A stretch of 33,914 bases of DNA from Chryseobacterium gleum (lineage in GTDB: Bacteria > Bacteroidota > Bacteroidia > UBA10329), in the NCBI GenBank assembly GCA_945903645.1, contig CAMDOM010000039.1, positions 1 through 33,914 on the forward strand, given 5' to 3'. Positions 2,310 through 33,914 of this stretch are shown here, piece after piece. The notes below the pieces were generated by a model. The model saw only the letters and a list, made by a program, of their open reading frames with translations, ran no database searches and was not told the DNA's origin. Within the stretch, counting starts at the first letter, position 1. Each line of letters starts with the position of its first letter. A program made the translations under genes and the position numbers.

Positions 2310-3275
2310 TCAGAAATAAGTGCCGCTAGTAAGATAGTTGGTTACATAATCATTCACACCTTGTTCTAAGGAAGTGAAAGGACGATTGTACCCAACGCCT
2401 CGCAACTTGGTCATATTCGCCTCGGTGAAATATTGGTACTTATCTCTAATGTCCAAAGGAGTATCTGCGAATTCAATGGTTTCTTCCCTGTTCATTGCTG
2501 CAAAAGTGGCGCGAACTAGGTCTATAAAGGTGCGGGCAGTTCCTGTACCCACATTGTAGATACCATTTTTAGCTCGGTTTTCCATAAGAAAGATGCAGAT
2601 ATCAACTACATCTTTCACATAGATGAAATCGCGCAACTGTTCACCATCCTTAAAATTAGGATTGTGAGAGCGAAAAAGTCTCATCGCCTCGGTTTTCCGA
2701 ATCTGACCGAAGGCGTGAAAGACCACAGATGCCATCCGACCCTTGTGATATTCATTTGGTCCATAAACATTGAAGAACTTGAGTCCCGCCCAGGAAATAG
2801 GTTGCTTCGTTTGTTCAATAGCCCAAAGGTCAAATGTGTTTTTAGATTCACCGTAAGGGTTTAAGGGAATGAGGTTTTTAATCACGGAATGGTTGTCCTC
2901 AAACCCCCACTCACCCAAACCGTAAGTCGCGGCAGAAGACGCATAAACAAGTGGTAGGCCGAATTCAGTGCAACATTGCCAAACACTCTTGGAGTAATCC
3001 ACATTGAGTTGCTGGAATATTGTGGTATCGAATTCGGTGGTATCTGTGCGTGCTCCCAAATGGAAAACCATTTTAACGGAAGCATGATTTGCTTTGAGCC
3101 AAGAGATGAAATCGTTTCGGTGAACTTTGGCGGATAATGTTTTCTGAGCAAGATTTGGAAGCTTGTCTTCGCGGCTAAAATCGTCTACGGCAACAAGGTT
3201 GGAATAACCAGCATTGTGCAAACCTGCCAACAAGCAACTTCCAATGAATCCAGCAGCGCCAGTAACTACAATCAT
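2310..3275 (-). CDS. hldD: ADP-L-glycero-D-manno-heptose 6-epimerase
   Basis: A 321-residue extended short-chain dehydrogenase, close to the usual length of HldD/RfaD. It converts ADP-D-glycero-D-manno-heptose to the L-glycero form for the lipopolysaccharide inner core, in the cytoplasm. The N-terminus MIVVTGAAGFIGS carries the Rossmann GxxGxxG (Gly6, Gly9, Gly12). VAVDDFSREDK follows strand 2 as in this family. The catalytic set is visible as Ser113/Ser114 in YASSAATYG and Tyr141-x3-Lys145 in NPYGESK. FKDGEQLRDFIYVKDV is also characteristic. It lies one base after the stop of the upstream lipoprotein gene, so the two are probably co-transcribed. An NAD-dependent UDP-sugar epimerase of another specificity is possible but less likely. 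Confidence 0.92.
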   Translation of the reverse strand: MIVVTGAAGFIGSCLLAGLHNAGYSNLVAVDDFSREDKLPNLAQKTLSAKVHRNDFISWLKANHASVKMVFHLGARTDTTEFDTTIFQQLNVDYSKSVWQCCTEFGLPLVYASSAATYGLGEWGFEDNHSVIKNLIPLNPYGESKNTFDLWAIEQTKQPISWAGLKFFNVYGPNEYHKGRMASVVFHAFGQIRKTEAMRLFRSHNPNFKDGEQLRDFIYVKDVVDICIFLMENRAKNGIYNVGTGTARTFIDLVRATFAAMNREETIEFADTPLDIRDKYQYFTEANMTKLRGVGYNRPFTSLEQGVNDYVTNYLTSGTYF

Positions 3276-3276
3276 G

Positions 3277-3705
3277 TTAGTTGGTTATCCAAAGCACATT
3301 GCCGTTGAAAGAAGTGTTGTATTGCAATAATCCAATTGCGGCCAACCCATCAACAGGAGCGCCATCTACAAGAAGAAACTTGGAATCGCAACATTCGCCA
3401 TCTACGGCAAAAATGTCGGTATCGTCCACCGTCACTCTGCAACCTTCATTGGGCAAATAGGTGCAATGCCGATCGTAAGCACGAAACTCATCTGGAGAAT
3501 ACCTGTAAATGATAATGCCTTTCGAACCGCCAGTAATAGTAACATGACCGCCAACAGCTTGAAGCGCAGAGAAATCGGGATTGGAAACGATGAGCTGAAA
3601 ATTTACAGGAGCGTAGGGAACTCCGGTAGTATTGGTGTTCTCACAAGAAATGCTAATCAATGAAATCAAAGCAAACAATAGCGGTAGCCAGAGGTTAATT
3701 TTCAT
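3277..3705 (-). CDS. Lipoprotein with a degenerate Rieske-like domain
   Basis: I chose the ATG at 3705, not an upstream one at 3822. It gives a 142-residue protein that opens with a lipoprotein signal (MKINLWLPLLFALISLISISC, lipobox SISC). The mature part resembles the Rieske fold. HCTYLPNEGC stands where CxHxxC is expected, and CCDSKFLLVDGAPVDGLA stands where CxxHGSxFxxxxG is expected. The two His ligands of the 2Fe-2S cluster are replaced (Tyr and Asp), so a cluster is unlikely. The gene is one base from hldD and probably heads that operon. Its role is unknown; the protein should be membrane-anchored in the periplasm or at the outer membrane. Confidence 0.75.
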   Translation of the reverse strand: MKINLWLPLLFALISLISISCENTNTTGVPYAPVNFQLIVSNPDFSALQAVGGHVTITGGSKGIIIYRYSPDEFRAYDRHCTYLPNEGCRVTVDDTDIFAVDGECCDSKFLLVDGAPVDGLAAIGLLQYNTSFNGNVLWITN

Positions 3706-3800
3706 TCCGTAAAGATAGAAAAGCCAATGTCCGTAACGAATGCGATGTGAATTAACCAAGTAGCTTGGCATTATTTGAATAGATGGTATATTCGTCACCC

Positions 3801-3826
3801 TCAAATTGAGGAATTCCTCCATTTGA
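3801..3826. promoter_or_regulatory. Near-perfect 26-bp palindrome between divergent genes
   Basis: TCAAAT, one base, GAGGAATTCCTC, one base, ATTTGA: the two halves match at 24 of 26 positions with no loop. It lies between the divergent starts at 3705 (minus) and 3904 (plus). Zero-loop symmetry suits a dimeric protein operator better than an RNA hairpin. No regulator gene is nearby. Confidence 0.5.
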
Positions 3827-3848
3827 ATTTGAGGAGATTTTTAAGTTG

Positions 3849-3867
3849 AATGCAAGTGGGTTGCATT
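3849..3867 (+). promoter_or_regulatory. Small hairpin in the leader of the 3904 gene
   Basis: AATGCAA-GTGGG-TTGCATT forms a perfect 7-bp stem with a 5-base loop, 36 bases before the chosen start at 3904. It could be a leader structure or a second operator half. Function is not established. Confidence 0.35.
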
Positions 3868-3903
3868 TTACAAAGTGAATTTGAATACAAGAATGAACGA
3901 AAT

Positions 3904-4212
3904 ATGAAGTTAACAGCATCACCAATGAAGAGCAGTTTAATTGGCCTAGCGCTAACGGTCTTTTTATCAGTAGGAATAACTATGCCAGTAATGGCGCAAA
4001 GCTCTGCCTCTAAAGCCCAGGCTGAAACAGAGAAAAAGCAAGCAGCTTTGAAAAAGGAAGAAGCCAAAGCGCAAGAAGCTGGATTGAAAGCACATATGAA
4101 ATCGCAGGATAAGGAAACGCGGAAACGAATGAAAGAGAATAAACGAAAGGTTGACAAAGCAAACAAAGCGAAAAGTTGGAAGCAAAAGAGTCGAAACAAT
4201 AGAGCAAAATAA
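3904..4212 (+). CDS. Small secreted lysine-rich coiled-coil protein, unknown
   Basis: Starting at the ATG at 3904 gives 102 residues beginning MKLTASPMKSSLIGLALTVF, a good signal peptide with probable cleavage after PVMA (VMA-Q). An upstream ATG at 3850 would bury the signal in an 18-residue extension that falls within a palindrome, so I reject it. The mature part of about 70 residues is almost entirely charged and helical, rich in Lys, Glu, Ala and Gln, ending RNNRAK. It looks like a small periplasmic coiled coil or nucleic-acid/polyanion-binding peptide. No family was recognised. It is followed 31 bases later by another small gene, perhaps in one transcript. Confidence 0.65.
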   Translation: MKLTASPMKSSLIGLALTVFLSVGITMPVMAQSSASKAQAETEKKQAALKKEEAKAQEAGLKAHMKSQDKETRKRMKENKRKVDKANKAKSWKQKSRNNRAK

Positions 4213-4243
4213 ATTCAGGTTGGATTAATAAACATAAAGCGAC

Positions 4244-4687
4244 ATGGAAGAGATATTGTATTTAATAGCAGGGGCGGCATATTTGGCGTTCAATTTTTAT
4301 AAAAAGTCACAGGAAGCAAAGGCAGAAAAACATGCCGAGCAAGCGACACAGCGGGATTCATCTACTCCAACTTTGCCTGAAGAAAAGAGTTATGAAACCT
4401 ATGAGGCTCCAAAATCGCTCGAGGAAATGATTTTAGAACGCTTTGGAGAGAAGGCACCTCAACCGAAAGTTGTAGTTGCAAAGCAGGTTGTTGCAAAGCC
4501 TTCTCCTTTTCTTACCACAGATGCTCCTCGATATGCAGAAGGGCAGCGGCCAAGAGTGGAACGAAGGAGTAAAAAAGTGAAAGATGAAACCAAGCCGAAA
4601 GTGTTTTACAGTGATATTTTGCAAGAGGAACTAGACTTAAAAAAGGCTTTTGTCTACAATGCCATCATGCAACGGCCTTACGCTTAG
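4244..4687 (+). CDS. Small single-pass membrane protein, unknown
   Basis: 147 residues. The N-terminus (ILYLIAGAAYLAFNFYKK, residues 4-21) is a signal-anchor helix. It is followed by a charged, disordered cytoplasmic or periplasmic stretch with many Lys, Glu and Pro. The last 25 residues, with DLKKAFVYNAIMQRPYA at the end, resemble a short C-terminal motif (hydrophobic-x2-KA-hydrophobic-x-Y-x2-I-x-RPY) that I associate with small Bacteroidota membrane proteins of unknown function. It follows the 3904 gene closely. The protein has no recognisable enzyme motif. Confidence 0.65.
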   Translation: MEEILYLIAGAAYLAFNFYKKSQEAKAEKHAEQATQRDSSTPTLPEEKSYETYEAPKSLEEMILERFGEKAPQPKVVVAKQVVAKPSPFLTTDAPRYAEGQRPRVERRSKKVKDETKPKVFYSDILQEELDLKKAFVYNAIMQRPYA

Positions 4688-4707
4688 TTCATTAACGCAT
4701 TTTAACA

Positions 4708-4741
4708 TTTGTTTAACAAATCTATATTGCCCTTATGTTCT
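4708..4741 (+). promoter_or_regulatory. Candidate promoter of the TonB-dependent receptor gene
   Basis: TTTG at 4708-4711 lies 22 bases before TATGTTCT (4734-4741), which is close to the Bacteroidota TTTG / TAnnTTTG pair but lacks the final G. The -33 element is embedded in a symmetric TTTGTTTAACAAA. Approximate match only. Confidence 0.3.
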
Positions 4742-4789
4742 TTTCTATTTTAGCCGCACTTTTTTCGCAGCATTTGAAACTGTATTGAT

Positions 4790-7700
4790 ATGATTAGAAA
4801 ACTTCTCTTACTCGCCATTATTTCCATTGGATTCATTGGTTCATCCCATGCGCAAATTGGTACAGGTACATTGTCTGGTACAATTACCGACCAAGCCACG
4901 GGCGAAACGGTGCCATTTGCCAATATAGTTGTTCTAAAAGCTGGTCAACAAGTGACTGGAGCCTCCACAGACTTTGATGGCAAATACCGTATTGCGGCCA
5001 TGAAACCTGGAACAGACTATGTTGTTAAGGCTTCCGTAGTTGGTTTTGGCGCTCAAGAAAAAACTGGGGTTAAAGTAAGCGCGGGTCAAATAACCTTCGT
5101 AGACTTCAAACTAACTCCGGGTATTGCCCTTGGTGAAGTTCAAATTATCGCATATGAAGTTCCGCTTATCGAAAAGGATGGTGGTTCTAAAACAACCCTT
5201 TCGGGTGCTGACATATCTAAGATGCCCAGTAGGGGAACTACCGCAGCTGTAACTACGGTTGCTGGGGTTCAAGACAATGACGGAGCGGTAGGAAGTGTGC
5301 GGGGTACTCGCGAAGGTTCAACCTACACCTATATAGATGGTGTTAAAGTGCGTGGATCTGCAACTGTGCCTCAAGGAGCGATTGATCAAGTTTCGGTACT
5401 TACAGGTGGTATGCCCGCACAGTATGGTGATGCTACTGGTGGTATTATCTCGATTACAACCAAAGGTGCAGCACGTAAGATATCAGGTGGTATTGAACTA
5501 CTGAGTTCTGGGGGTATAAAACTCAACGATAAAAATGATTACTTACTTGATCAACAGGGGTATCATTTGATAGGTGTCAATCTTTCTGGACCTCTTTTGA
5601 GTGTTAAGGATAAATCAGACCCTGAAGGGAAAGCAAAGCGTCCACTGCTTGGATTCTTTCTTTCTGGCGAGGTTAATTATGTGCAAGACCCACGTCCATC
5701 TGCCATTGGTTACTACTATGTTAATGAGGATAAATTGGCTCAATTGCGTGCAAATCCAATAATTCGTAACCCAACTGGGGGAAGTTTTTTGGCATCAGAG
5801 TTTGTGCGTCAAAGCGATTTGGAGTTTACCAGGCAACGTAAAAATGTGCCATCACGTGGAGTTGTAGCTTCTGGAAACATTGACTTGTACACTACCCCTA
5901 ATATTACGTTGAAAGTTGGTGGTTCTATTGACTTCAACGATAGGAAAATACCTGATTATACCAATTCCATGTTCAATTACAGTAACAATGGAGAAGAGAT
6001 AAATAAAACATGGAGGGTATTTGGTCGTTTCACCCAGCGTTTTAATAATGCCACTCCTGATGAAAATGCTAAGAAGTCGTCCATTATTTCAAACGCCTAT
6101 TATAGTATTCAGGCTGATTATGAAACATTCAATCGTGTGACTCAAGACTCACGTCACGAGGATCAGTTGTTCCGTTATGGTTATGTTGGTAAATTCGAAA
6201 CATTAAGGGAGAAAACCTACGCATTCGGGGTTGATCCAACAACTGGTTTGCCCGGTTTACTTCAAGGACCAGACAGGGATACCTTAGTAACATTCCAGTC
6301 TTCAGATGTAAATCCAGATTTATCCGCGTATACGCAGCAGTTCTATGATTTAAATCCAAACCCAGATGGATTCTACAGGAACCTGTTTGAGTTGGCTCAG
6401 GATCGTGGGGCATTGCGAAATGGCGATTTCCCAGATAATGTGTATGGCTTATGGAGAAATACGGGCTATGCATACAACAGCTATAGCCAACTAGATCAAA
6501 CTCAGTTTCGTGTGGCTGCAACGGGAGCATTCGATATAAAAAACCACTCTATTTCTCTTGGTTTTGAATACGAGCAAAGGAATGATGCATTTATTGGATA
6601 CTCGCCTTATGGTCTTTGGCAGATTACCCGCCAGTACGCGAATAGCCATTTGGCACAGCAGGATACCGAAAATCCTATTATCCATTTTGATGAAAACGGA
6701 AACTATACAGATACAATTTCCTACAATCAACTATATACTCCAGTAGATGCAAATAACCCATTGCTTGGTGGAGTTGGACAGTATTTTATCGACTACAACA
6801 TGCGTCAAGCGCTCGGGTTGGATGCAGCTGGAACAGATTGGATTGATATTGACGCACTCGACCCATCGTTTTTTCAAACAAGCTGGTTTAGTGCTGACGA
6901 ATTGTTGAATAATGGTAATTATTTGGTGGATTATTTCGGTTTTGATCACACTGGAAAGCGGCTTTCTGGAAAGCCAACGTTTGAGGATTTCTTCACCGAG
7001 AAAGATGATAATGGTCGATTTACGCGTAAAGTTGCCCCATTTGAGCCAATATACATTTCTGGATACATTCAGGATGAATTCACCTTCAAAGATTTGATTT
7101 TCCGTGTTGGTGTAAGGGTTGATCGTTTTGATGCGAATCAAAAAGTGTTGAAAGATCCTTACTCGCTATACGAAACAAAAAAAGCTGGAGAAGTAACTAG
7201 TTTCCCCGGAGGAGAAGCCGTTACGCATCCAAGCAATATCTCGGATAATGCCGTTGTTTATGTTAACGACATTAATAGTCCAACCGCGGTTTTAGGCTAT
7301 CGCGATGGTGATAATTGGTACAATGCTCAAGGAACTGCTTTGGCAAATGGCTCTTCTTTGCGCACAGGAACGGGTATAGCTCCATACTTGGTTAATCCAG
7401 GTCAAACCGTACTATCATCTGGCGCATTTAAGGATTACGATCCTCAAGTTAATGTGATGCCACGTATTTCGTTCTCTTTCCCAATTTCGGAAGATGCCTT
7501 ATTTTTTGCAAACTATGACGTTCTAACACAACGACCATTGAATGGAAATAGATTGAATCTTATGGATTATATGTTTTTGGAGAACATCAATGATGTAATC
7601 AATAATCCTGATCTTAAGCCTGAAACGACTATTGAATATGCTATTGGCTTCAAGCAGAAATTGAGCAAGCGTTCAGCTATTGAACTTAATGCATTCTACC

Positions 7701-8533
7701 GTGAAATGCGTGATCAGATTACTGTGTATCGCGTTGCAGAGGCTTACCCACGGTCATACTTGACCTATCGAAATTTGGATTTTGGAACGGTGAAAGGTCT
7801 TACCCTTACATACGACATGCGCAGAACTAACAATATCCAGTTCCGCGTTTCCTATACCCTTCAATTTGCTGATGGTACAGGTTCAAATTCTACAACTAGC
7901 CAAAATTTGGTGCAGGCTGGATTCGCCAATCTACGTGTTACTCAGCCGTTGGATTTTGACCAGCGTCACAACATCGTTGTAAGTGTGGATTACCGTTTTG
8001 GAGCGGATAAGAACTACAACGGTCCAAAGACTGCTTTGAAAAATGGAAAGGTTATCAACTGGTTTGAAAATCTTGGGGCAAACGCTATTATTAGAGCTGG
8101 TTCGGGAACTCCATTCTCTGGTCAGACTAATGTGACTGGTGATGCATTAATTAGCGGGGGAGGAACAGCATTTTTGGATGGGTCAATCAATGGTTCTTCC
8201 AAGCCTTGGCAGTTCCGTGTAGACTTAAGAATAGACCGAGATTTTAATATCAAATGGAACAAGGGATCTGAAGGCAAACCAGCCAAAACATCCATTTTGA
8301 ATGTTTATTTTGATTTGCAGAATCTTTTCAATACGCAAAACGTGATTGACGTGTATCGTGCAACCGGCAATCCCGATGATGATGGTTACTTGGCTGCCGC
8401 CCAGACTCAACAAAACATCGTAAATCAAATTGACGAACAATCATTCCGTGATCTTTATACAAGAAAGGTCAATGCCCCTGGTAACTACTCTATTCCACGT
8501 AGGTTCCGAATTGGCCTCATGTTGAACTTTTAA
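4790..8533 (+). CDS. TonB-dependent outer-membrane receptor with CarboxypepD_reg domain
   Basis: A 1247-residue protein. Residues 1-21 form a signal peptide (cleavage SSHA-Q). Residues about 25-112 form a carboxypeptidase-regulatory-like Ig domain (GTLSGTITDQATGETVPFAN, then TDFDGKYRI). A plug domain follows at about 130-230 (SVRGTREGSTYTYIDGVKVR, QYGDATGGIISITTKG). The rest is a 22-strand-type barrel ending in RRFRIGLMLNF with a C-terminal Phe. It should import or bind a large substrate at the outer membrane using TonB energy. No SusD-like partner lies next to it, so it is not an ordinary SusCD pair. Instead it precedes a T9SS cargo gene (20-base gap) and a PorV/PorQ-type gene, which suggests one operon. 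The substrate cannot be told from sequence. Confidence 0.92.
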   Translation: MIRKLLLLAIISIGFIGSSHAQIGTGTLSGTITDQATGETVPFANIVVLKAGQQVTGASTDFDGKYRIAAMKPGTDYVVKASVVGFGAQEKTGVKVSAGQITFVDFKLTPGIALGEVQIIAYEVPLIEKDGGSKTTLSGADISKMPSRGTTAAVTTVAGVQDNDGAVGSVRGTREGSTYTYIDGVKVRGSATVPQGAIDQVSVLTGGMPAQYGDATGGIISITTKGAARKISGGIELLSSGGIKLNDKNDYLLDQQGYHLIGVNLSGPLLSVKDKSDPEGKAKRPLLGFFLSGEVNYVQDPRPSAIGYYYVNEDKLAQLRANPIIRNPTGGSFLASEFVRQSDLEFTRQRKNVPSRGVVASGNIDLYTTPNITLKVGGSIDFNDRKIPDYTNSMFNYSNNGEEINKTWRVFGRFTQRFNNATPDENAKKSSIISNAYYSIQADYETFNRVTQDSRHEDQLFRYGYVGKFETLREKTYAFGVDPTTGLPGLLQGPDRDTLVTFQSSDVNPDLSAYTQQFYDLNPNPDGFYRNLFELAQDRGALRNGDFPDNVYGLWRNTGYAYNSYSQLDQTQFRVAATGAFDIKNHSISLGFEYEQRNDAFIGYSPYGLWQITRQYANSHLAQQDTENPIIHFDENGNYTDTISYNQLYTPVDANNPLLGGVGQYFIDYNMRQALGLDAAGTDWIDIDALDPSFFQTSWFSADELLNNGNYLVDYFGFDHTGKRLSGKPTFEDFFTEKDDNGRFTRKVAPFEPIYISGYIQDEFTFKDLIFRVGVRVDRFDANQKVLKDPYSLYETKKAGEVTSFPGGEAVTHPSNISDNAVVYVNDINSPTAVLGYRDGDNWYNAQGTALANGSSLRTGTGIAPYLVNPGQTVLSSGAFKDYDPQVNVMPRISFSFPISEDALFFANYDVLTQRPLNGNRLNLMDYMFLENINDVINNPDLKPETTIEYAIGFKQKLSKRSAIELNAFYREMRDQITVYRVAEAYPRSYLTYRNLDFGTVKGLTLTYDMRRTNNIQFRVSYTLQFADGTGSNSTTSQNLVQAGFANLRVTQPLDFDQRHNIVVSVDYRFGADKNYNGPKTALKNGKVINWFENLGANAIIRAGSGTPFSGQTNVTGDALISGGGTAFLDGSINGSSKPWQFRVDLRIDRDFNIKWNKGSEGKPAKTSILNVYFDLQNLFNTQNVIDVYRATGNPDDDGYLAAAQTQQNIVNQIDEQSFRDLYTRKVNAPGNYSIPRRFRIGLMLNF

Positions 8534-23307: not shown

Positions 23308-23955
23308 ATGCCTATTATTTCTCCCTCCATTCTTGCTACAGACTTTGCCCGCTTGGGTGAGGAGCTGGAAATGATAAATCGCAGTGAGGCCGACTGGCTG
23401 CATGTGGATGTGATGGACGGTGTGTTTGTTCCCAACATTTCTTTCGGTTTTCCGCTTATGGATGCTATGAAAAAGCATAGCACCAAACCTTTGGATGTGC
23501 ATTTGATGATAGTGAATCCAGATAAGTACTTATCGGATTTTAAAAATTCGGGTGCAGATTGGCTCACGGTGCATTATGAGGCTTGCCCGCATTTGCATCG
23601 CACTATTCAAGGCATTAAGGAATTGGGAATGAAAGCTGGTGTTGCGCTCAATCCACACACTCCTGTAAATGTGTTGGAAGATGTGATAAACGACCTCGAT
23701 TTGGTGCTTATTATGAGCGTGAATCCAGGTTTTGGCGGACAAAAGTTCATTCCCCGCGCTATGGATAAAGTTTTTGCTTTGAGGGAGTTGATTCGCAAAA
23801 CGGGCTCAAAGGCATTGATAGAAGTGGACGGTGGCGTAAATGCCACCAATGCAGTTGGATTGCTTGATATGGGTGCTGATGCCTTAGTTGCAGGAAGCTT
23901 TATATTTCGCTCCCAAAACCCAGTAGAAACAATTAGTAGCCTGAAACGGCTGTAG
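23308..23955 (+). CDS. rpe: Ribulose-phosphate 3-epimerase
   Basis: 215 residues, a TIM barrel of standard length. It interconverts ribulose 5-phosphate and xylulose 5-phosphate in the pentose phosphate pathway. Motifs seen are ISPSILATDFARLGEEL at the start, WLHVDVMDGVFVPNISFG with the metal-binding His and Asp, DVHLMIVNP, MSVNPGFGGQKFIP and the phosphate-binding EVDGGVNATNA. It converges on the minus-strand operon with only 6 bases between the stops. Confidence 0.96.
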   Translation: MPIISPSILATDFARLGEELEMINRSEADWLHVDVMDGVFVPNISFGFPLMDAMKKHSTKPLDVHLMIVNPDKYLSDFKNSGADWLTVHYEACPHLHRTIQGIKELGMKAGVALNPHTPVNVLEDVINDLDLVLIMSVNPGFGGQKFIPRAMDKVFALRELIRKTGSKALIEVDGGVNATNAVGLLDMGADALVAGSFIFRSQNPVETISSLKRL

Positions 23956-23961
23956 GCTCAA

Positions 23962-25164
23962 TTAACCAGCCACGTAATCTTTCAAGTAACTATAGGGTTC
24001 TGTGAGTTGCCCATTTTGTGCAATTGTGGCTCGATCTAGCACTTTTTGGGTGTCATTTCCAATAAAGAGGGGAATTATTTTATCGGCTAATTCCTCACCA
24101 AATCCAATCGAGGCATCCATTGGAATTTCGCAAGGTAGGTTGTCAACTGCCATTATGGTTATGCTGTCGTTGGCGTACGGTTCTGCTTCTTTTCCTGTGA
24201 ATCGCCCATAGCCGTAGATTGGATTAGTTATAGTGGAAGACCGCAACGTGGTAGGCACCGAACCTTGAATGTCGCAGGTGATGTCGGCTATTACGCGTAT
24301 GCGAAAATCATCGTCCTTCACATCTTCTTCAGTGAAAAATGCGGCTGAGTGTCCATCCCAAAAGTGTGCAGAAATGTAGATGTCTGCCTTGGATACGAAT
24401 TTCTTAAAGGTGTTGGTGTAAGTGGCTGAATCGCGGATAAAAGTATCAATGCTTTCTGGCGGTTTGCCATCGCGTTCGTGATAATCCAAAACATCGGCAT
24501 TGCACCACACAGGAAATTCAAAGTCTTTACTTAGAAAATCGGGAATGGAAACTTCGGTAATTTTAGCCGCAAGCATTGTTTCCCGCACACCGTTGGCCAC
24601 TTTTCCTCCTCCAGACACGATGATGCGTTCGTTTTTCAGATTGATTTTTTTCAATTCCTGATGCATCTCGGCAATGCTACTACACTGATGTGCTGGGCGC
24701 AATTTGTAGGTACTAGTTCGATTACCAAATGCCAAAAGCGCATTATATGCCCCAACAATTCCTGCGTATCGTCCGAAACCAAGTAGGCGTCTGCCAAAGT
24801 TGTCGGTAAGGCATTCGTAATCAATGAGGCGAATATTTTTGGCGACAACTTCCTGCAACAATTCGCGATTGTGTGCCTGTTTCTTTATCGTATGCGAAAA
24901 AAACATCATCGCGCTATTGGGCACCATCATAGCTGTCGGCACTTCTTTGACCCCAATAATTAGGTCACAATCTAGAATGTCTTCTACCACCGCAATTCCG
25001 TGGGCTGTATAGTCATCATCTGTAAAACACCGAACCGTACTGCTTTGGGCCACTATTGTTAGTGTAGGAAAGCGCAACAGGAGCTCTGCGCAATGCTGGG
25101 GTGCAATCGCGGTGCGTTTATCTGGCGGATTCTTGCCTTCACGAATAATTCCAATCTTCATCAA
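23962..25164 (-). CDS. Saccharopine/alanine-dehydrogenase-like NAD(P)-dependent oxidoreductase
   Basis: 400 residues. The N-terminus KIGIIREGKNPPDKRTAIAP is the AlaDh/PNT N-terminal domain signature. A mid-protein glycine-rich segment IIVSGGGKVANGVRETMLAA near residue 200 is the nucleotide-binding part. The combination resembles the lysine-ketoglutarate reductase half of animal AASS and the yeast saccharopine dehydrogenase. These enzymes make or split amino-acid/keto-acid adducts such as saccharopine. The true substrate is unknown, and the gene's place at the end of a glycosyltransferase/KAS III operon does not obviously suit lysine metabolism. Start either 25164 or one codon later. It is two bases from the GNAT gene. 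Confidence 0.75.
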   Translation of the reverse strand: MMKIGIIREGKNPPDKRTAIAPQHCAELLLRFPTLTIVAQSSTVRCFTDDDYTAHGIAVVEDILDCDLIIGVKEVPTAMMVPNSAMMFFSHTIKKQAHNRELLQEVVAKNIRLIDYECLTDNFGRRLLGFGRYAGIVGAYNALLAFGNRTSTYKLRPAHQCSSIAEMHQELKKINLKNERIIVSGGGKVANGVRETMLAAKITEVSIPDFLSKDFEFPVWCNADVLDYHERDGKPPESIDTFIRDSATYTNTFKKFVSKADIYISAHFWDGHSAAFFTEEDVKDDDFRIRVIADITCDIQGSVPTTLRSSTITNPIYGYGRFTGKEAEPYANDSITIMAVDNLPCEIPMDASIGFGEELADKIIPLFIGNDTQKVLDRATIAQNGQLTEPYSYLKDYVAG

Positions 25165-25166
25165 TC

Positions 25167-25733
25167 TTAATTTTCTGGGAGGATGACCTCCATTTCTGAA
25201 CCATAAACTTTTTGCAATAAGCTCAGATTCTTTTGAAATACGTTGTAAAATACCTCTTTTGATAGCATGAGTCTGTAGTAGGTTTCGGGGTGTTCTGAAA
25301 GGATATGCACAAACCCAAGACCTTCATTATAGTGCAACGCCACCGTATTATTGACCATCACCTTGGCTTCCACACCTAGCAATGGTGTGTGTGTGAAGAA
25401 GTACTCGAGAAGCAATGCAGAAGCAGAAACGGGTAGGGGAGTGCCCTGAAACGCTTCTGTTTTGATAAACAATCCAGATTGCCCCATTTTTTTATCCCAA
25501 TCGATATGTGAGAAATGAATGAGACCGTGGAATTCAGAATGCTGTTGGATAAGGAAATAATAATCGGTTTCGGGATCTAATTGCTCAAACCAACGTTTTT
25601 GATCAGCCTCCGAAATGTATTCGCGGAAATCCATAAACCGATTGATGCGTTCATCATTGCGCCATAGTCGCACGGTTTCTATGTGCTCTTTGCGCAGCCT
25701 TACCAGTTCAATTCCGAATCCTTTGATAATCAT
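25167..25733 (-). CDS. GNAT-family N-acetyltransferase
   Basis: 188 residues with the RimJ/RimL-like (Acetyltransf_3) layout. The N-terminal IELVRLRKEHIETVRLWRND, a central GLIHFSHIDWDKKMGQSGLF and the C-terminal VMVNNTVALHYNEGLGFVHI cover strands 1 to 6. The N-x6-Y-x3-LGF ending is typical of the acetyl-CoA fold. It probably acetylates an amino group of a small molecule, possibly an amino sugar made by the same operon. The start overlaps the stop of the glycosyltransferase by four bases (ATGA), so translation is coupled. Confidence 0.85.
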   Translation of the reverse strand: MIIKGFGIELVRLRKEHIETVRLWRNDERINRFMDFREYISEADQKRWFEQLDPETDYYFLIQQHSEFHGLIHFSHIDWDKKMGQSGLFIKTEAFQGTPLPVSASALLLEYFFTHTPLLGVEAKVMVNNTVALHYNEGLGFVHILSEHPETYYRLMLSKEVFYNVFQKNLSLLQKVYGSEMEVILPEN

Positions 25734-26653
25734 TCCTTGATTTCGCCTATCAAATATTGGGGCCTATTCCAATCTTTCACATACATACGGCTAATGTATT
25801 CGCCTATAATACCAAGGCTAAAAAGAATGAGACTTGTAGAAAAAAAGATGGCCACAACAATGGAAGTGAAGCCCAATTCCACGTTTTCATATTGCTTTTG
25901 GTAAATGAAATAAAGACCAATGCACAAGGTGATGAATGATGAAAGAAGCCCTCCGTAGGTCATCAAACGCAACGGAATAACGGTGTAGTTCACCACGTAA
26001 TTGATGGTCATAAAAACCAGCTTTATGCCACTATAACCCGAAGTGCCTACCTCGCGTGCTTCGTGTCGCACATATACTTGGGTAACTATGGCAGCGTGCC
26101 AGCTCAATACTTCGTCAAGCAACATGTGGCGATGATAGTTCTTTAACAATCCATCGCAAACGCTGCTGTTTATTAAACGAAAAGAAGAGCCATTCCCAGA
26201 GGTATTTCCTATAATTCCGAATACTCTATTGAACACCCAACTGCCCAAATTTCGCAACAGTGAATGCTGCTTTTGGGCAAAAATTCCGTACACCAAATCT
26301 GCACCAGTTTCCTGTTGACGTGCTAGTAAATGCGGAATTTCCTCAGGTAAATGTTGCAAATCATCATCAAGAGTAATAATCCATTTTCCTGAAGCATGAT
26401 GGATTCCACAAAGGGTGGCAGATTGCTGCCCACTATTGCGAGACAATCGAATGGCTTTAACGCGGCCTCTATATTTCTCCGTCAACAATTTTAGCGCTTG
26501 CCAGCTATTATCAGGGCTAGCATCGTCTACCAAAATCACTTCTACAGATTGGTTGATTGCTTGAAACACAGGAAATATAAGATCCACCAGTTTCGCAATC
26601 GTTTGCGAACCACCATATACTGGCACTACTACCGAAAAATCGACTGACTTCAC
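25730..26653 (-). CDS. GT2-family membrane glycosyltransferase (DPM1/GtrB/ArnC-like)
   Basis: 307 residues. The GT-A catalytic domain carries FSVVVPVYGGSQT, ILVDDASPDNSW (about 40-51) and LDDDLQHLPEEI (about 95-106), where DDD supplies the metal-binding DxD. Two C-terminal membrane helices lie at about 230-255 and 265-290 (FITLCIGLYFIY; IVVAIFFSTSLILFSLGIIG). Proteins of this layout move a sugar from a nucleotide donor to a polyprenyl phosphate at the cytoplasmic face. The sugar and acceptor here are not known. It lies in the middle of the ACP-KAS III operon. Confidence 0.88.
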   Translation of the reverse strand: MKSVDFSVVVPVYGGSQTIAKLVDLIFPVFQAINQSVEVILVDDASPDNSWQALKLLTEKYRGRVKAIRLSRNSGQQSATLCGIHHASGKWIITLDDDLQHLPEEIPHLLARQQETGADLVYGIFAQKQHSLLRNLGSWVFNRVFGIIGNTSGNGSSFRLINSSVCDGLLKNYHRHMLLDEVLSWHAAIVTQVYVRHEAREVGTSGYSGIKLVFMTINYVVNYTVIPLRLMTYGGLLSSFITLCIGLYFIYQKQYENVELGFTSIVVAIFFSTSLILFSLGIIGEYISRMYVKDWNRPQYLIGEIKE

Positions 26654-26706
26654 GGGGTGAAAATACAGAAGTTAACTTGGCTTTTACAGGTGATTTGTGG
26701 CGTGTT

Positions 26707-27774
26707 TTACTCCGCGTATTCCAACCACAATACCTGCTTCATTGCGCTGAAATTGCCAATAACCGTGGCCCACGAAAGCCCCACTCCAAAGCCTGAAAGC
26801 AAAAGCAGATTTTCCTTTTTGCATAAGGAATTGCGCAGGTTGTAGGCCAGGGTGACAGGGATAGAGGCTGTTCCAGAGTTCCCTAAATCTTGCAAGCTAC
26901 TTTCGGTTTGAGCCTCGGTTAGCCCAACACGTTTGCGTACCATTTCGTTTATAACTCTATTGGCCTGATGAAACACGGCATGGTCTATTTTGCCTAAATC
27001 GGTTTGGGTTTGGTGCATTAAATCGGTTACTTGTTGTGGCCAATGTTGGGCGGCATGTTGATACACATCTATGCCGTTTAATATGAGGTCCACTGGCCTG
27101 CGCATTATGCCTTGTCCGTAGGCTGTCATCGTCAAACTATCCATATTGAACGGATTGCGGTAGCCGCCTTCAGGTATCCAAATCACTTCTTTGGCTTGGC
27201 CGTTGGTGTTAAGCGCAAAATGGAGCGGATTATCTACTGAGGCATCTTTTACTACCGCAGTGGCCGATCCTGCATCCGAAAATAATGGAACAGTACTTCG
27301 GTCTTCGGGAGAGATGCAAGCGGTAGAAATATCTCCTGCAAGGAGTAATGCTTTTGTGCCATCGGGCATACCTTGCAGCAGCGAGGTAATGGTCCATAAT
27401 CCATAAACGTAGCCCGAACAACCCAAATTGATATCGAAAGCGGCACAGTCGGTGGTGCAACCCAAACGGTGTTGCATTATGGCCGCAGTTGCTGGTGTAA
27501 TATGGTCGGGGGTTTGGGTAACGAACACAATGATGCGAATGTCGGTGGCGTTCCAACCCAGTTTTTGCATCAAATTTTGGGCAGCATGCACACACAAATC
27601 AGAAGTGCAGGTGTTGGGAGAAGCTACCCGTCTGCTGGCTATGCCCGTGGAACGTATGTAGAGTTCGCGTTCCTTTTCAGGAATCAGCTCGCAATCTTTA
27701 TTGTATGCAATTTGTGCCGGTACAGATGCAGCAATTCCTTCGATGCGCACGTGCCGTAGCTGCGCCCAATTCAT
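26707..27774 (-). CDS. 3-oxoacyl-ACP synthase III (KAS III/FabH-like)
   Basis: 355 residues. A thiolase-fold condensing enzyme with the full triad Cys119 (INLGCSGYVYGL), His269 (VFHQANRVI) and Asn299 (LGNSGTASIP). KAS III joins an acyl-CoA starter to malonyl-ACP, or in paralogues makes related acyl transfers. It is longer than FabH (about 320) and follows directly from an ACP-like gene by a four-base ATGA overlap, so the two are made together. The context with GT2 and GNAT suggests a dedicated, non-housekeeping role. It is separated from the GT2 gene by 53 bases. Confidence 0.9.
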   Translation of the reverse strand: MNWAQLRHVRIEGIAASVPAQIAYNKDCELIPEKERELYIRSTGIASRRVASPNTCTSDLCVHAAQNLMQKLGWNATDIRIIVFVTQTPDHITPATAAIMQHRLGCTTDCAAFDINLGCSGYVYGLWTITSLLQGMPDGTKALLLAGDISTACISPEDRSTVPLFSDAGSATAVVKDASVDNPLHFALNTNGQAKEVIWIPEGGYRNPFNMDSLTMTAYGQGIMRRPVDLILNGIDVYQHAAQHWPQQVTDLMHQTQTDLGKIDHAVFHQANRVINEMVRKRVGLTEAQTESSLQDLGNSGTASIPVTLAYNLRNSLCKKENLLLLSGFGVGLSWATVIGNFSAMKQVLWLEYAE

Positions 27775-28007
27775 GCTTTTTGAGCGCCTTTTACTACAAG
27801 GAATAAATCGTTTAGCGAACGAACACTTGCAAAATCTGATGCAGAAATGGGTACACCATAGAGTTCGTCAATACGCGCAATGAGCAGCAAGGCCAACATA
27901 GAACTCCAGTTTGGAAGGTCGCGCAACACGGTTTCGGGTGTAAAGGCACAGTGGTCGGCCTCTTGCAGCTCTTGTTCTATCGAAGCAATAAAGGCCGAAA
28001 TGGTCAT
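27771..28007 (-). CDS. Divergent acyl carrier protein-like protein
   Basis: I chose the ATG at 28007, giving 78 residues, the normal ACP length. The ATG at 28061 would add a tail that overlaps a promoter-like element. The pattern VLRDLPNWSSMLALLLIARI, then ELYGVPISASDF and VRSLNDLFLVV, follows helices 2 to 4 of an acyl carrier protein. The usual DSL/M motif is SSM here, with Ser36 as the probable phosphopantetheine site. It should carry acyl intermediates for the neighbouring KAS III. The stop overlaps the KAS III start by four bases. Without a structure or search, ACP identity stays an inference from pattern and context. Confidence 0.75.
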   Translation of the reverse strand: MTISAFIASIEQELQEADHCAFTPETVLRDLPNWSSMLALLLIARIDELYGVPISASDFASVRSLNDLFLVVKGAQKA

Positions 28008-28037
28008 ACTGGAAATCAACAATGCAATGAATCGAGG

Positions 28038-28045
28038 CAAATGTA
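28038..28045 (-). promoter_or_regulatory. Candidate -7 element of the ACP-KAS III operon
   Basis: On the minus strand TACATTTG fits TAnnTTTG, 30 bases before the ACP start at 28007. The -33 element is not clear. It lies between the divergent genes starting at 28007 and 28151. Confidence 0.35.
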
Positions 28046-28150
28046 GCCTTGGCACAAACATAATAGAATTCGGGCGGATGTGGTGCGTGTGGGCAAGAAT
28101 GGCCTCATATCCTACCTTTGGCGCTACGCCTTTGGGCTATCGCGTTGCGC

Positions 28151-29056
28151 ATGGGGTTCACTTTTGCTCATATTATCAATCCCTACAGGGCAGAGGCTGG
28201 TACTACAGACCACCGCATTCAGCAAATTACCATGTATTCTATGCGCAATGCTTTGGCCTATCGTTCTGCCTTTTCTGTGCAACTACTCACGGCTCAATTT
28301 GCGGAGGATGAAGGTTTAGTTTCCGATGGATTTACGGCCACTCCTAGCCTTTCAAGGTCAGTTTTGGATGCCCATGCCTTTTCTCGGCCCAAGAAATACG
28401 CCCTTATTCAAGATGTTTTGCAACGGGCTTATGATGCGTCTGATGCCGAATTCATCATATACACCAACATGGACATCATTGTGCAACCGTTTTTCTATGA
28501 GGCGATTGTAGCGTACCTAGAAGATGGTTTGGATGCATTGGTCGTAAATCGCAGACGGATTTTGGATAGTGGGCAAACCAAAGATGACTTGCCGTTAATT
28601 CTTGCGCAGGTGGGGCAGTCGCACCCTGGGTTCGATTGTTTTGTGATGCACCGTTCGCTCATTTCGAAGTTGAAACTTGCGGGCTTGTGTGTAGGTGTGC
28701 CTTTTGTGGAATCTACGTTGGTGCATAACATCATTGCTTTTGCAACGCAATATCGCATTGTGACCGATGCCCACCTTACCACCCATCTTGGTTTGGAAGT
28801 GATGCCGCCCCGTGATGCAGAATATCATCAGTATAATCAACGCTGTTTTCAAGCTATTTTGCCCGAATTGAAACCGTTGCTCGTAGGCAAACCGTTGCCC
28901 TACGTGTATTTGTCCTTTTTGCAGCGCACATGGAAACGTGCCTTAAACCCAGCTTTGTTCTCTTCCCTTAGTTTGGAATTGGAAGGAAAAAGCGCTTCCC
29001 GAAAAATGCGTGGCTATTGGAATCAGCTGCGTTTTTATTGGTTAGAGAAAAATTAA
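28151..29056 (+). CDS. Glycosyltransferase-like (GT-A fold) protein, unknown function
   Basis: From the ATG at 28151 the protein is 301 residues, beginning MGFTFAHIINPYRAEAG. An ATG 33 bases earlier would add 11 residues that do not look like a start. The centre has EFIIYTNMDIIVQPFFYEAI, resembling the strand-loop with a metal-binding Asp in GT-A glycosyltransferases. HPGFDCFVMHRSLI and DAHLTTHLG follow, as in a group of bacterial proteins of unknown function in surface-glycan regions. No membrane helix is visible. It is divergent from the ACP operon and shares its intergenic region, so it may belong to the same pathway. The identity rests on motif resemblance only. Confidence 0.65.
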   Translation: MGFTFAHIINPYRAEAGTTDHRIQQITMYSMRNALAYRSAFSVQLLTAQFAEDEGLVSDGFTATPSLSRSVLDAHAFSRPKKYALIQDVLQRAYDASDAEFIIYTNMDIIVQPFFYEAIVAYLEDGLDALVVNRRRILDSGQTKDDLPLILAQVGQSHPGFDCFVMHRSLISKLKLAGLCVGVPFVESTLVHNIIAFATQYRIVTDAHLTTHLGLEVMPPRDAEYHQYNQRCFQAILPELKPLLVGKPLPYVYLSFLQRTWKRALNPALFSSLSLELEGKSASRKMRGYWNQLRFYWLEKN

Positions 29057-30098: not shown

Positions 30099-33000
30099 CT
30101 ATCGAATCAGAGTGAGATAACCCGCCTTCTTAAAGTTTCCAAGGCTGAATTCGTTCTTAACAAGTAGAACATAGTAGTACGTTCCAGCTTCAGCTTCTGC
30201 ACCGGATGGTGTTCTTCCGTCCCAGAAAATTTCTCCCGAGTTATCGTAATGCATCACAATTCCCCAACGGTTATAGATAGCCAGTTCGTAGGCAATCACC
30301 CCGAAATTGTCAATGAAGAAATTGTCGTTAAAGCCGTCATCGTCTGGAGTGAAGACGTCCGGAATGACAATAATTTGCGCAACCTCTACTTCAACGGTGT
30401 TCGTGTCGGTGCAACCAAAGCTGTTCTCAACGGTCAAACTTACCATGAATATACCCTCATCATTGAAGGAATGTTCTGGGTTCTGCTCCTCAGAAAATTC
30501 GCCATCACCGAAATTCCAATTCCAAAGCACAATAGATGAATCTCCAGAAATGTCGGTGAACAGGTGGTCTACTCCCAATTCGCCATTGGCATTGGATTCT
30601 GCCATTGCGATGGGTGAAGGATGGAGACCTACCGTGACCGAAGCGGTGCTTGTGTCCGTGCAGAAAGCATTACTTACAATCACAGTATAGGTTTCAACCC
30701 CACTTGGGGAAACTGTTATGGAAGAGGAAGTTGAACCATCGCTCCACAAGAAGAATTCGCCTCCCGAGGCAATGAGGGCCACACTGTCATTCGCGCAAAT
30801 CAACTGGTTTGGCGAAACAACTGCCACAGGAACAGCACCTACGTTGATGACAGGGGGAGTAGCCTCGGCAGTGCAACCGTTCGCACCTGTCACGATTACT
30901 GTGTATAAATTCGAATTGCCAACCATCAGCAAAGCGTTTGTTGCTCCCGCAACCACTTGTCCTTCTGCGTACCATTGGAAAGAAACATTGCTTGGTGTGG
31001 CCGTGGCCTCCAGTGCTGTGGTTTCGCCTTCGCAAATCGCAAGCGCACCAGTCACGGCAACTGCCACTTCTGGTCGGTCGTTCACCACCACTATGGTTGT
31101 ATCCGAATCTGAAGAACAGCCGTTCGCGTCTACCACGTTCACCGCATATTCACCAGCATTGCTAACGGTTATTGATTGGGTCTGTTCCCCGGTCGGGCTC
31201 CATTCGTATGATTGACCACCTGTTGCTGTCAGCACCACCTGTTCGCCATCGCAGAAAGTGGTCGGCCCATCGGTAGTGATACTAATCGCTGTTGGCTGAT
31301 AGATTAGGGTCTCCATAGTATCGGCAGCACCCACACAACCATTTGCATCAGTTACTTCCACTGTGTAACTGCCTGTTTCGTAAACCGTGATGGACTGAGT
31401 AACCTGCCCGTCTGGGTACCACGAATAACTGCCAGATATTGGCGCGGTCAGTACCAATGAATCACCCACGCAGAAAGTGGCTGGGCCAGACAATGAAATG
31501 GTTGGGGTCGGTGTGTCGAATACTGTTACATCTACGGAGGCGGAGGTCGCATTGCAACCGTTCAGATCTGTCACGGTAGCGGTGTAAGTTCCAGTTTCCG
31601 ATACTGTTATTGACTGTGTATCCTCGCCATTAGGAAACCAGGTGTATGAAGCCCCTTCGTTTACAGTAAAAACCACCTCACCGCCATCACAGAAGGCTGT
31701 TGGTCCGCTTAGGTTGATGGTAACAGGATTAATTTCAAACACCGTCACTTCTACAGCTGTTTGCGCTTCGCCTTCGCAACCGTTCTGGTCAATCACTGTC
31801 ACGGAATACGTTCCGGATTCGCTCACCGATATTGATTGCGTAAGTTCACCACTTGGAGACCAGAGATAGGAATCTGCTGTGGACGATGTAAGTGTTACTG
31901 ATCCACCATTGCAGAATTCGGTTGGGCCATTGGTTGAAATGGTTGGAACTGGATTATTGAACACCACAACAGACGTAGCGGCCGATTCGCCCTCACATCC
32001 GTTGGCATCAGTTACCGTTACCGTGTAGGTTCCAGTATTGCTCAACGTAATTGATGCAGTCGTCTCGCCATTTGGCGACCACAGATAAGCATCTTCTTGT
32101 GAAGCAGTCAATGTAATGGAATCACCTTCGCAGAACGAGGTCGGGCCGTTGGCGCTAATGGTTGGTGTCGGGTTCGGATTCACGGTCACATCAACCGTAT
32201 CGGACGAAGATCTGCAACCGTTGGCATCCACCACAGTCACTGCGTATTGTCCGGATTCTGTCACCACGGTAGATTGTGTCGTTTCTCCGTTCGATGACCA
32301 TAAATAGGAGCTTCCCTGTGAAGCGGTCAATGTCACCTCATTACCATTACAGAATTCGGTAACACCGCTTGCAATGATGGTTGCCTGATCAATAGTGAAT
32401 ACTTCAACGGAAATGGTGTCTGATACACCAGCACAACCGTTCGCATCTGTCACTTCAACCCAGTAGTCTCCTGCTTCTGAAACAACGATTGATTGACTCA
32501 CTTCTCCGTTTGGATTCCATTCGTAATCTACAAACGTTCCAGTAGAAAGTGTCACAGAATCACCGTTACAGAAACTGGTCGGTCCGTTGCTAATGACGAT
32601 CGGCACAGGATTCGGATTAACCGTCACATCAACCGTGTCCGACATCGAAACGCATCCATTCGCATCTGTAATAGACACGGAATAGGAACCTGAGGTGGTA
32701 ACCATAAGGGTTTGGGTTGTTTCCCCGTTCGGTGACCACAGGTATGAACTTCCTTCAGATGCGTTCATAGTTAACACTTTACCTTCGCAAAAGGTGGTAA
32801 CGCCATTCAAAAAAATCTGTGCAGGGTCTGTGTCAAATGTGGTCACATCGATTACGTTCGATGCGCCCACACATCCGTTCGCATCAGTAATTAACACCGA
32901 GTAAGAACCAGCACCATAAACTGTTATTGATTGTGTGGTCTGCCCGTCTGGCGACCAATCGTAAGCTGATGCTGGGCTCGCTGTTAATACTACCGAATCT

Positions 33001-33914
33001 CCTTCGCAGAATGTGGCAGGGCCACTGGCCGTAATGCTCACCTGTGGTACATCGTAAACCGAAACGTTCACGGATTGCGATTCATTTCCGCAGCCATTTG
33101 CGTCTGTCACCGAAACACCGTAATCTCCAGATTCGGTTACCGTGATTGATTGGGTAGTTTCCCCGTTTGGTGTCCATAGATAGGTGTCAGAAGTTGTAGC
33201 TGTAAGCACCACCGAAGCACCTTCGCATAAGCTCGTTGAACCATTAGACGTAATGTTCACCTGTGGTAGTGGGTTTACAATAATCACGACCGAATCCGCA
33301 GAAGCTGAACATCCGTTTGCATCCGTTACTGTCACCGTATAGGTTCCTCCAGAATTCACGAATATCGTTTCCGAAGTCTCTCCAGTAGGGTACCAACTAT
33401 ACGATGCACCAGACGATGCTGTCAGGGCAACCCTGTCGCCAGCACAGAATTCAAGTTGACCATCTACATCAATCGTTGCTGGGGCTGGTTGTGTTCCTGA
33501 TACTACCCAAGCGCAAGTTGTAGTATTAAAGTTAGATGATTCATAACATGCCAATCCTGTAGGCATGGGATCTTGAGTTCCTGATACTACCCAAGCACAA
33601 GTGGTCGTGTTGAAGTTAGCCGTCTCATAGCACGCCAATCCTGTAGGTATGGGATCTTGAGTTCCTGATACTACCCAAGCACAAGTGGTCGTGTTGAAGT
33701 TAGCTGTTTCATAACATGCTAATCCAGTTGGAGCAGCAGGTTGTGTACCTGTTACATCCCAAGCGCAAGTTGTCGTATTGAAATTCGATGATTCATAACA
33801 AGCAAGTCCAGTTGGAGCAGCAGGTTGTGTTCCAGTTACATCCCACTGACATGATGTAGTGTTGAATGATGAAGTTTCATAACATGCTAATCCTTTTGGA
33901 GCAGCAGGTTGTGT
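30099..33914 (-). CDS. Giant SprB-like repetitive adhesin with T9SS type B C-terminal domain (5' end outside window)
   Basis: The frame is open from 30099 to the window edge (about 1271 residues seen). The apparent start at 33638 is a TTG inside the repeat, so the real start lies outside. From the C-terminus back: a gliding-motility-associated/T9SS type B domain of about 86 residues (DVFTPDDDGFNDNFFIDN, YNRWG, FWDGR, AGTYYYV), then one PKD domain (SSIVLWNWNFGDGEFSEEQN), then about 13 Ig-like units of about 73 residues with FCxGD and TDANGC cysteines, then 28-residue repeats with CYE and TTTCAW. The protein should be exported by T9SS and act as a surface adhesin, possibly in gliding, but a dedicated role is not shown. 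The terminator sits just downstream. Confidence 0.9.
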   Translation of the reverse strand, partial: TQPAAPKGLACYETSSFNTTSCQWDVTGTQPAAPTGLACYESSNFNTTTCAWDVTGTQPAAPTGLACYETANFNTTTCAWVVSGTQDPIPTGLACYETANFNTTTCAWVVSGTQDPMPTGLACYESSNFNTTTCAWVVSGTQPAPATIDVDGQLEFCAGDRVALTASSGASYSWYPTGETSETIFVNSGGTYTVTVTDANGCSASADSVVIIVNPLPQVNITSNGSTSLCEGASVVLTATTSDTYLWTPNGETTQSITVTESGDYGVSVTDANGCGNESQSVNVSVYDVPQVSITASGPATFCEGDSVVLTASPASAYDWSPDGQTTQSITVYGAGSYSVLITDANGCVGASNVIDVTTFDTDPAQIFLNGVTTFCEGKVLTMNASEGSSYLWSPNGETTQTLMVTTSGSYSVSITDANGCVSMSDTVDVTVNPNPVPIVISNGPTSFCNGDSVTLSTGTFVDYEWNPNGEVSQSIVVSEAGDYWVEVTDANGCAGVSDTISVEVFTIDQATIIASGVTEFCNGNEVTLTASQGSSYLWSSNGETTQSTVVTESGQYAVTVVDANGCRSSSDTVDVTVNPNPTPTISANGPTSFCEGDSITLTASQEDAYLWSPNGETTASITLSNTGTYTVTVTDANGCEGESAATSVVVFNNPVPTISTNGPTEFCNGGSVTLTSSTADSYLWSPSGELTQSISVSESGTYSVTVIDQNGCEGEAQTAVEVTVFEINPVTINLSGPTAFCDGGEVVFTVNEGASYTWFPNGEDTQSITVSETGTYTATVTDLNGCNATSASVDVTVFDTPTPTISLSGPATFCVGDSLVLTAPISGSYSWYPDGQVTQSITVYETGSYTVEVTDANGCVGAADTMETLIYQPTAISITTDGPTTFCDGEQVVLTATGGQSYEWSPTGEQTQSITVSNAGEYAVNVVDANGCSSDSDTTIVVVNDRPEVAVAVTGALAICEGETTALEATATPSNVSFQWYAEGQVVAGATNALLMVGNSNLYTVIVTGANGCTAEATPPVINVGAVPVAVVSPNQLICANDSVALIASGGEFFLWSDGSTSSSITVSPSGVETYTVIVSNAFCTDTSTASVTVGLHPSPIAMAESNANGELGVDHLFTDISGDSSIVLWNWNFGDGEFSEEQNPEHSFNDEGIFMVSLTVENSFGCTDTNTVEVEVAQIIVIPDVFTPDDDGFNDNFFIDNFGVIAYELAIYNRWGIVMHYDNSGEIFWDGRTPSGAEAEAGTYYYVLLVKNEFSLGNFKKAGYLTLIR
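30630..33473 (-). repeat. About 13 tandem Ig-like repeats within the adhesin
   Basis: Each unit is about 73 residues (about 219 bases): [V/I]-x-[N/S]-G-x-[T/A]-x-FC-[E/N/D]-G, then Y-x-W-x-P-x-G-[E/Q]-x-[T/S]-Q-S-I, then Y-x-V-x-V-T-D-[A/L]-N-G-C. The last two units toward the C-terminus are more divergent (FQWYAEG and FFLWSDGSTSS). The DNA is less conserved than the protein, so these are old duplications. Confidence 0.85.
33493..33914 (-). repeat. Tandem 84-bp repeats coding a 28-residue CYE...TTTCAW unit
   Basis: Unit boundaries fall at 33493, 33577, 33661, 33745, 33829 and 33913, always 84 bases apart, so five whole units are present and the array continues past the window. Each unit encodes PTGLACYE-[T/S]-x-[N/S]-FNTT-[T/S]-C-x-W-[V/D]-V-[S/T]-GTQ. 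Units 33577 and 33661 are nearly identical in DNA, so copy number probably still changes. Confidence 0.9.

Follow-up and report, generated by a model that had tools for sequence, protein, structure and literature searches.

The window analyzed here, a stretch of 33,914 nucleotides (CAMDOM010000039.1), comes from a Bacteroidia genome assembled in 105 contigs, of which it is C39. Five intact open reading frames (ORFs) are packed on its minus strand within positions 23962-28007, as the original prediction had stated. In transcriptional order they encode an acyl carrier protein (ACP), a 3-oxoacyl-ACP synthase III (KAS III), a family 2 glycosyltransferase (GT2), an N-acyltransferase with the Gcn5-related N-acetyltransferase (GNAT) fold, and a saccharopine-dehydrogenase-like protein of the lysine-forming, lysine-ketoglutarate reductase (LKR) type. 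All five had been proposed to act in one route to an acylated, possibly amino-acid-bearing surface lipid. We find that the first four genes form one conserved module and that the fifth, a core metabolic gene, is a passenger and not a functional member of it.

The five genes and their products

The ACP gene (27771..28007, minus strand) starts with ATG at 28007 and encodes 78 amino acids. It overlaps the KAS III gene (26707..27774, minus strand) by an exact ATGA at 27771-27774. The GT2 gene (25730..26653, minus strand) follows after a gap of 53 bp; its GTG start is matched in the relative G007. A second exact ATGA overlap at 25730-25733 joins it to the GNAT gene (25167..25733, minus strand). The dehydrogenase gene was called at 23962..25164 on the same strand, but relatives point to an ATG at 25161, which places its start 5 bp from the GNAT stop. 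Gene calls were made with a simple ORF chooser, by which short ACPs can be missed. Searches of Pfam, NCBIfam, and PDB confirmed the family calls of all five proteins, so that the coordinates, overlaps, and families given originally all hold.

The ACP matches PF00550 (PP-binding) at 21.9 bits, against a cutoff of 20.8 bits. In its carrier-serine motif, WSSM, Ser36 is invariant and Trp34 nearly invariant among 21 homologues. KAS III contains both expected domains (PF08545, ACP_syn_III, and PF08541, ACP_syn_III_C), and its catalytic triad of Cys119, His269, and Asn299 is invariant in 19 sequences. It scores below the cutoff of the curated housekeeping FabH model (194.4 versus 292.1 bits). Because a second FabH-like KAS III, 29% identical, is encoded on contig C7 of the same genome, we conclude that the window KAS III is dedicated and specific to the module.

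The GT2 has a Glycos_transf_2 Pfam match, and its family profile matches ArnC (1e-66) and GtrB sll0501 (1.9e-64) over positions 3 to 306 of 307, as well as DPMS (2.5e-29). An acidic metal motif, Asp-Asp-Asp-Leu, is invariant, and two C-terminal hydrophobic segments can be read from the sequence. The earlier assignment as a polyprenyl-phosphate sugar transferase is thus well supported by the full-length profile match, and the protein is predicted to be of the ArnC/GtrB/DPMS type.

The GNAT protein matches PF13302 (Acetyltransf_3), and PseH and FdhC are its nearest relatives of solved structure. Its predicted structure (mean predicted local distance difference test score [pLDDT] of 92.5) has PseH (4ri1) as the best fold match, with a TM score of 0.71 to 0.74, while the best PDB profile match is FdhC (7.7e-13). 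Among the module GNAT homologues, as in FdhC, no glycine is invariant where the alignment meets the Gly-rich coenzyme A (CoA) loop of SpeG; this hints at, but does not prove, a donor other than acetyl-CoA. From fold and homology we infer an N-acyltransferase of an amino sugar, of the PseH/FdhC type. The N-acetylation proposed originally is better read as N-acylation with an ACP-bound acyl group.

The dehydrogenase has an AlaDh_PNT_N Pfam match and matches the LKR domain of AASS (3.5e-31) and yeast Lys1 (1.7e-10). Its VK and SHTIK segments, the conserved Lys/His region, align with AASS. It corresponds to the LKR half of AASS; the two activities are fused in AASS and are encoded by two separate genes here.

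Conservation of the four-gene module

A close KAS III match (E value of 1e-69 or better) is found in 17/59 relatives, and weaker but syntenic matches are found in G048, G017, and G049. The module is present in 20/58 relatives, a count that includes G003, whose contig ends after GT2, and G007, whose contig begins in KAS III. The order ACP-KAS III-GT2-GNAT is kept in nearly all of the loci inspected among relatives. The window cassette has one KAS and no short-chain dehydrogenase/reductase (SDR). Many relatives add an SDR ketoreductase between KAS III and GT2 or a second KAS III before ACP, and some loci also add a GT-A-fold transferase (ORF6, below).

Scanning genome contigs with the window KAS III as a single sequence gave no match, but a scan with a KAS III alignment retrieved 80 loci from public genomes, most of which carry the same cassette. 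They are chiefly from Bacteroidota metagenome-assembled genomes (MAGs), with others from Moraxellaceae (L155) and, with GT2 undetected, from Alcanivoracaceae (L165). Among 100 loci seeded on KAS III, most of them from MAGs with contig breaks, GT2 was found in 62, GNAT in 57, both in 53, and the two side by side in 51. A separate search with a GNAT profile served as a check independent of the seed. It gave 21 strong matches (183 to 281 bits; next best, 76 bits), of which 19 sit in KAS III loci. Another is on contig C128 of G007, which opens with the C-terminal 44 residues of a KAS III, directly followed by the module; there the KAS III tail is followed by GT2 (71% identity), GNAT (62%), and an alpha/beta hydrolase. 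The remaining strong match belongs to a GT2-GNAT pair without KAS III on contig C189 of G001. Because 20/58 relatives share the same gene order, which also recurs at loci from other phyla, the ACP, KAS III, GT2, and GNAT genes belong together, as one module conserved across families and phyla. The outcome originally named as refuting the proposal, a failure of the five genes to co-occur in relatives, was found for the dehydrogenase only.

In a KAS III tree, the window sequence groups with that of a Sphingobacteriales MAG (98% support in the SH-like approximate likelihood ratio test; window branch long), apart from six congeners. The comparison of window and G007 coding sequences was saturated (dN/dS not obtainable, with dS undefined), and an excess of third-position changes alone was visible.

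The gene after GNAT (e.g., in L069, L117, and L126) is usually convergent and shares a few bases with it. This gene belongs to one of a small number of kinds: a sulfotransferase, an Asp/Asn hydroxylase-like protein, or ORF6. The GT2-GNAT pair in G001 (L209, C189, positions 3267-8202), which has neither KAS nor ACP, has as its neighbors an LpxO/OlsC-like hydroxylase and GT-C proteins similar to those of the TMTC-like group.

Proposed pathway and alternative readings

We favor, with moderate confidence, the reading that the cassette makes a polyprenyl-phosphate-linked, N-acylated amino sugar for delivery to lipid A or to a glycan or protein of the surface. Judging from its catalytic residues, KAS III would form a 3-oxoacyl-ACP from a short acyl-CoA and malonyl carried by the dedicated ACP. 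Reduction to a 3-hydroxyacyl-ACP would take a ketoreductase; in many relatives this could be the operon SDR, and in the window genome a housekeeping FabG would act in trans. The fold and homology of the GNAT suggest that it would use this acyl group to N-acylate an amino sugar, a reaction that PseH and FdhC carry out on nucleotide sugars. The ArnC/GtrB-like GT2, whose family is well supported, would load what is presumably this sugar onto polyprenyl phosphate; the order of these two steps is putative. After flipping, an ArnT/TMTC-like GT-C transferase may move the sugar to its final acceptor. The substrate sugar, acyl chain, and acceptor of this route are putative. An acylated surface glycan or lipid is the best reading; the amino-acid part of the original proposal is unsupported.

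Several observations weigh against this pathway. The window operon contains no ketoreductase gene, and the cassette contains no amino-sugar biosynthesis gene; DegT aminotransferases were considered as cassette members and rejected, as they accompany the PglD-type loci described below. The GNAT misses the PseH equivalog cutoff (71.3 versus 93.1 bits), and its nearest sequence homologues also include the polyamine acetyltransferase SpeG. The GT2-GNAT pair without KAS in G001 means that a KAS does not have to be the source of the acyl group in every case.

If all five genes formed one pathway, the dehydrogenase would add a saccharopine-like amino-acid adduct to the product. The shared strand and the 5-bp spacing after GNAT favor this, as does the presence of the dehydrogenase in 20/20 module carriers versus 29/38 noncarriers (Fisher P = 0.02). 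However, the gene is near-universal in the class (50/59 relatives; 62 to 72% identical within the genus), whereas the window KAS III stands apart from its congeners in the tree. No relative inspected has the dehydrogenase gene beside the module. The two are on different contigs in G007, G001, G004, G005, G013, G015, and G048, and the dehydrogenase gene is near the module in 2/100 loci, the window itself and G008, where it is ∼11 kb away. In G007, the closest relative by the dehydrogenase gene (72% identity), it lies inside contig C11 with unrelated flanks, and the module is on C128. Far stronger is its co-occurrence with a Lys9-like saccharopine dehydrogenase (PF03435 and PF16653), encoded on contig C31 in the window genome: 44 genomes have both, 5 and 1 have one singly, and 8 have neither (Fisher P = 5.5e-6; both Fisher tests ignore the relatedness of the genomes). 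Because of this co-occurrence, the evidence points to a role for the dehydrogenase in ordinary saccharopine/lysine metabolism, and it may be cotranscribed with the module here by proximity. An amino-acid-bearing lipid was rejected on the same grounds, and a five-gene pathway is very improbable. Tight spacing alone, here 5 bp, can mislead pathway inference.

Two other readings keep the four genes and differ in the use of the acyl group. Under one, acyl-ACP would feed a lipid to which GT2 adds a sugar, with GNAT as a side activity, giving an acylated glycolipid. ACP and KAS III are lipid-building parts, and some relatives encode LpxO/OlsC-like hydroxylases (NCBIfam OlsC, 8.6e-27, under the cutoff) and PhyH-type oxygenases close to their loci. 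Against it, GT2 falls in the polyprenyl-phosphate clade, the conserved families showed no lipid-forming acyltransferase of the PlsC or GlsB/OlsA type, and GT2-GNAT is the tightest pair, persisting without KAS in G001. A KAS III accompanied at most by one SDR, and by no dehydratase or enoyl reductase, also fits a short hydroxyacyl group and not a long chain, and we consider the glycolipid unlikely. Barely less unlikely is plain N-acetylation of an amino sugar by GNAT from acetyl-CoA, with ACP and KAS III used to modify that glycan in some other way, by an O-acyl group or a lipid. In its favor, the protein that matches best in fold, PseH, is an acetyltransferase, and a GT2-GNAT pair exists without KAS or ACP (G001 C189). 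Yet ACP and KAS III share the operon at 19/21 strong GNAT loci, no other conserved acyltransferase is there to use acyl-ACP, and the lack of an invariant glycine in the stretch aligned with the SpeG CoA loop, as in FdhC, also argues against it.

Related systems and neighboring genes

The polyprenyl-phosphate-linked, N-acylated amino sugar that we propose has partial parallels in known systems, although no description of this exact gene set was found in the open-licence literature. The original prediction, which knew of no standard pathway with this set, was only partly right: for the ACP/KAS part, the wfpC-G genes of Flavobacterium psychrophilum set a close precedent (PMC6519341). The wfp locus comprises wfpC and wfpE (KAS), wfpD (ACP), wfpF (reductase), and wfpG (PglD-like acyltransferase), and the O-antigen carries 3,5-dihydroxyhexanoyl on Qui2NAc4N; the gene assignment is itself a prediction from the genes and nuclear magnetic resonance of the product (PMC6519341). 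There, a polysaccharide-dedicated ACP, KAS, and ketoreductase supply a short hydroxyacyl group to an amino sugar. The window shares the dedicated ACP beside KAS III and lacks both the two KAS with ketoreductase and the PglD/bacillosamine setting, with no PglD, DegT, or PglC gene near. The wfp genes include a PglD-like (left-handed helix) transferase and lie with bacillosamine genes at a Wzx/Wzy locus; in place of that transferase the window has a GNAT and an ArnC/GtrB-type GT2. We therefore regard the window cassette as a variant of wfp-like acyl supply that lacks two defining wfp features. KAS III and SDR genes homologous to those of wfp were found in Flavobacterium loci L104, L107, and L108. 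PglD-type KAS III/ACP/SDR loci number 20, 16 of them with DegT, and this type and the GT2/GNAT type are nearly mutually exclusive (2/20 overlap; Fisher P = 9e-9). A Parabacteroides plasmid carries KAS III and two ACPs, an AMP-binding enzyme, an acetyltransferase, and an SDR among polysaccharide genes.

Likeness to the ArnC/ArnT and GtrB/DPMS systems lies in the full-length alignment of GT2 and in the TMTC-like GT-C proteins near many relatives' loci, which resemble ArnT. The Arn pathway is not known to have an ACP/KAS acyl supply, and ArnC carries a formamido sugar. FdhC and PseH share the GNAT fold and give the best profile and fold matches. FdhC is credited with moving 3-hydroxybutanoyl onto Fuc3N in an account of Escherichia coli O103-type O-antigens (PMC4869667). 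Unlike the window GNAT, FdhC and PseH work where nucleotide-sugar genes are close by, and the portions of the sources that we drew on describe no dedicated ACP or KAS in their operons.

TMTC-like GT-C genes are near 18 module loci versus 1 nonmodule locus (P = 0.003), and sulfotransferases are near 22 module loci versus 1 other (P = 0.0003); the loci are related, which makes both P values optimistic. The bacterial TMTC-like proteins near the cassette combine GT-C and tetratricopeptide repeat regions (L066, L069, L070, L073, L078, and 14 other loci; PF08409 is over its cutoff in L066), and among solved structures, TMTC proteins have their nearest homologue in ArnT (PMC7801869). The window genome encodes two TMTC-like GT-C proteins elsewhere and has 11 PMT_2 matches.

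ORF6 (28151..29056, plus strand) encodes a divergent glycosyltransferase of the GT-A fold. It had no Pfam match, and a known Pfam family was rejected as its identity; its AlphaFold model (pLDDT of 85) matches GT-A transferases in Foldseek (E value of 1.7e-9). Because ORF6 adjoins the module in 15/15 loci where it is found and in 8/11 genomes that have it, it is likely an accessory transferase of the SDR-less module subtype. These loci are the window, L067, L072, L074, L077, L078, L079, L097, L101, L103, L112, L116, L120, L126, and L142; ORF6 is convergent with GNAT in most relatives and divergent from ACP in the window. The intergenic region between ACP and ORF6 (28008..28150) is a candidate promoter region only. 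It holds three Bacteroidota-type −7 motifs, TAnnTTTG (minus strand at 28062 and 28045, plus strand at 28113), recognized post hoc among 18 in the whole window on both strands. No matching −33 TTG was found, and scans for sigma-70 promoters and terminators gave results at chance level.

On the other side of the cluster, rpe (ribulose-phosphate 3-epimerase; 23308..23955, plus strand; TIGR01163 over its cutoff) is convergent with the dehydrogenase gene, and the pair recurs in five congeners (G001, G004, G005, G006, and G008). Beyond ORF6, a minus-strand gene at positions 30099-33638 encodes, as read from the sequence, a large protein in which a similar Ig-like/PKD-like unit is repeated about ten times. 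Its C terminus is of the gliding-motility type, and it is probably a surface protein secreted by the type IX system.

N-acyl decorations define the antigenicity of O-antigens, and in F. psychrophilum the lipopolysaccharide serotype changes with the R-group genes (PMC6519341). A second type of acyl-supply cassette, found in about one-third of the sampled relatives and beyond the Bacteroidota, would predict undescribed acyl-sugars at the surface of many environmental bacteria. The module neighborhood also offers a route to the function of prokaryotic TMTC-like GT-C proteins. A tentative extension of the proposed pathway is an Arn-like surface modification route that would be widespread in the Bacteroidota, in which a short hydroxyacyl group supplied by a dedicated ACP and KAS III would pass via GNAT and an ArnC-like GT2 to a TMTC-like (ArnT-fold) GT-C transferase acting on lipid A, glycans, or proteins. 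If true, this route would give a function to the prokaryotic TMTC homologues.

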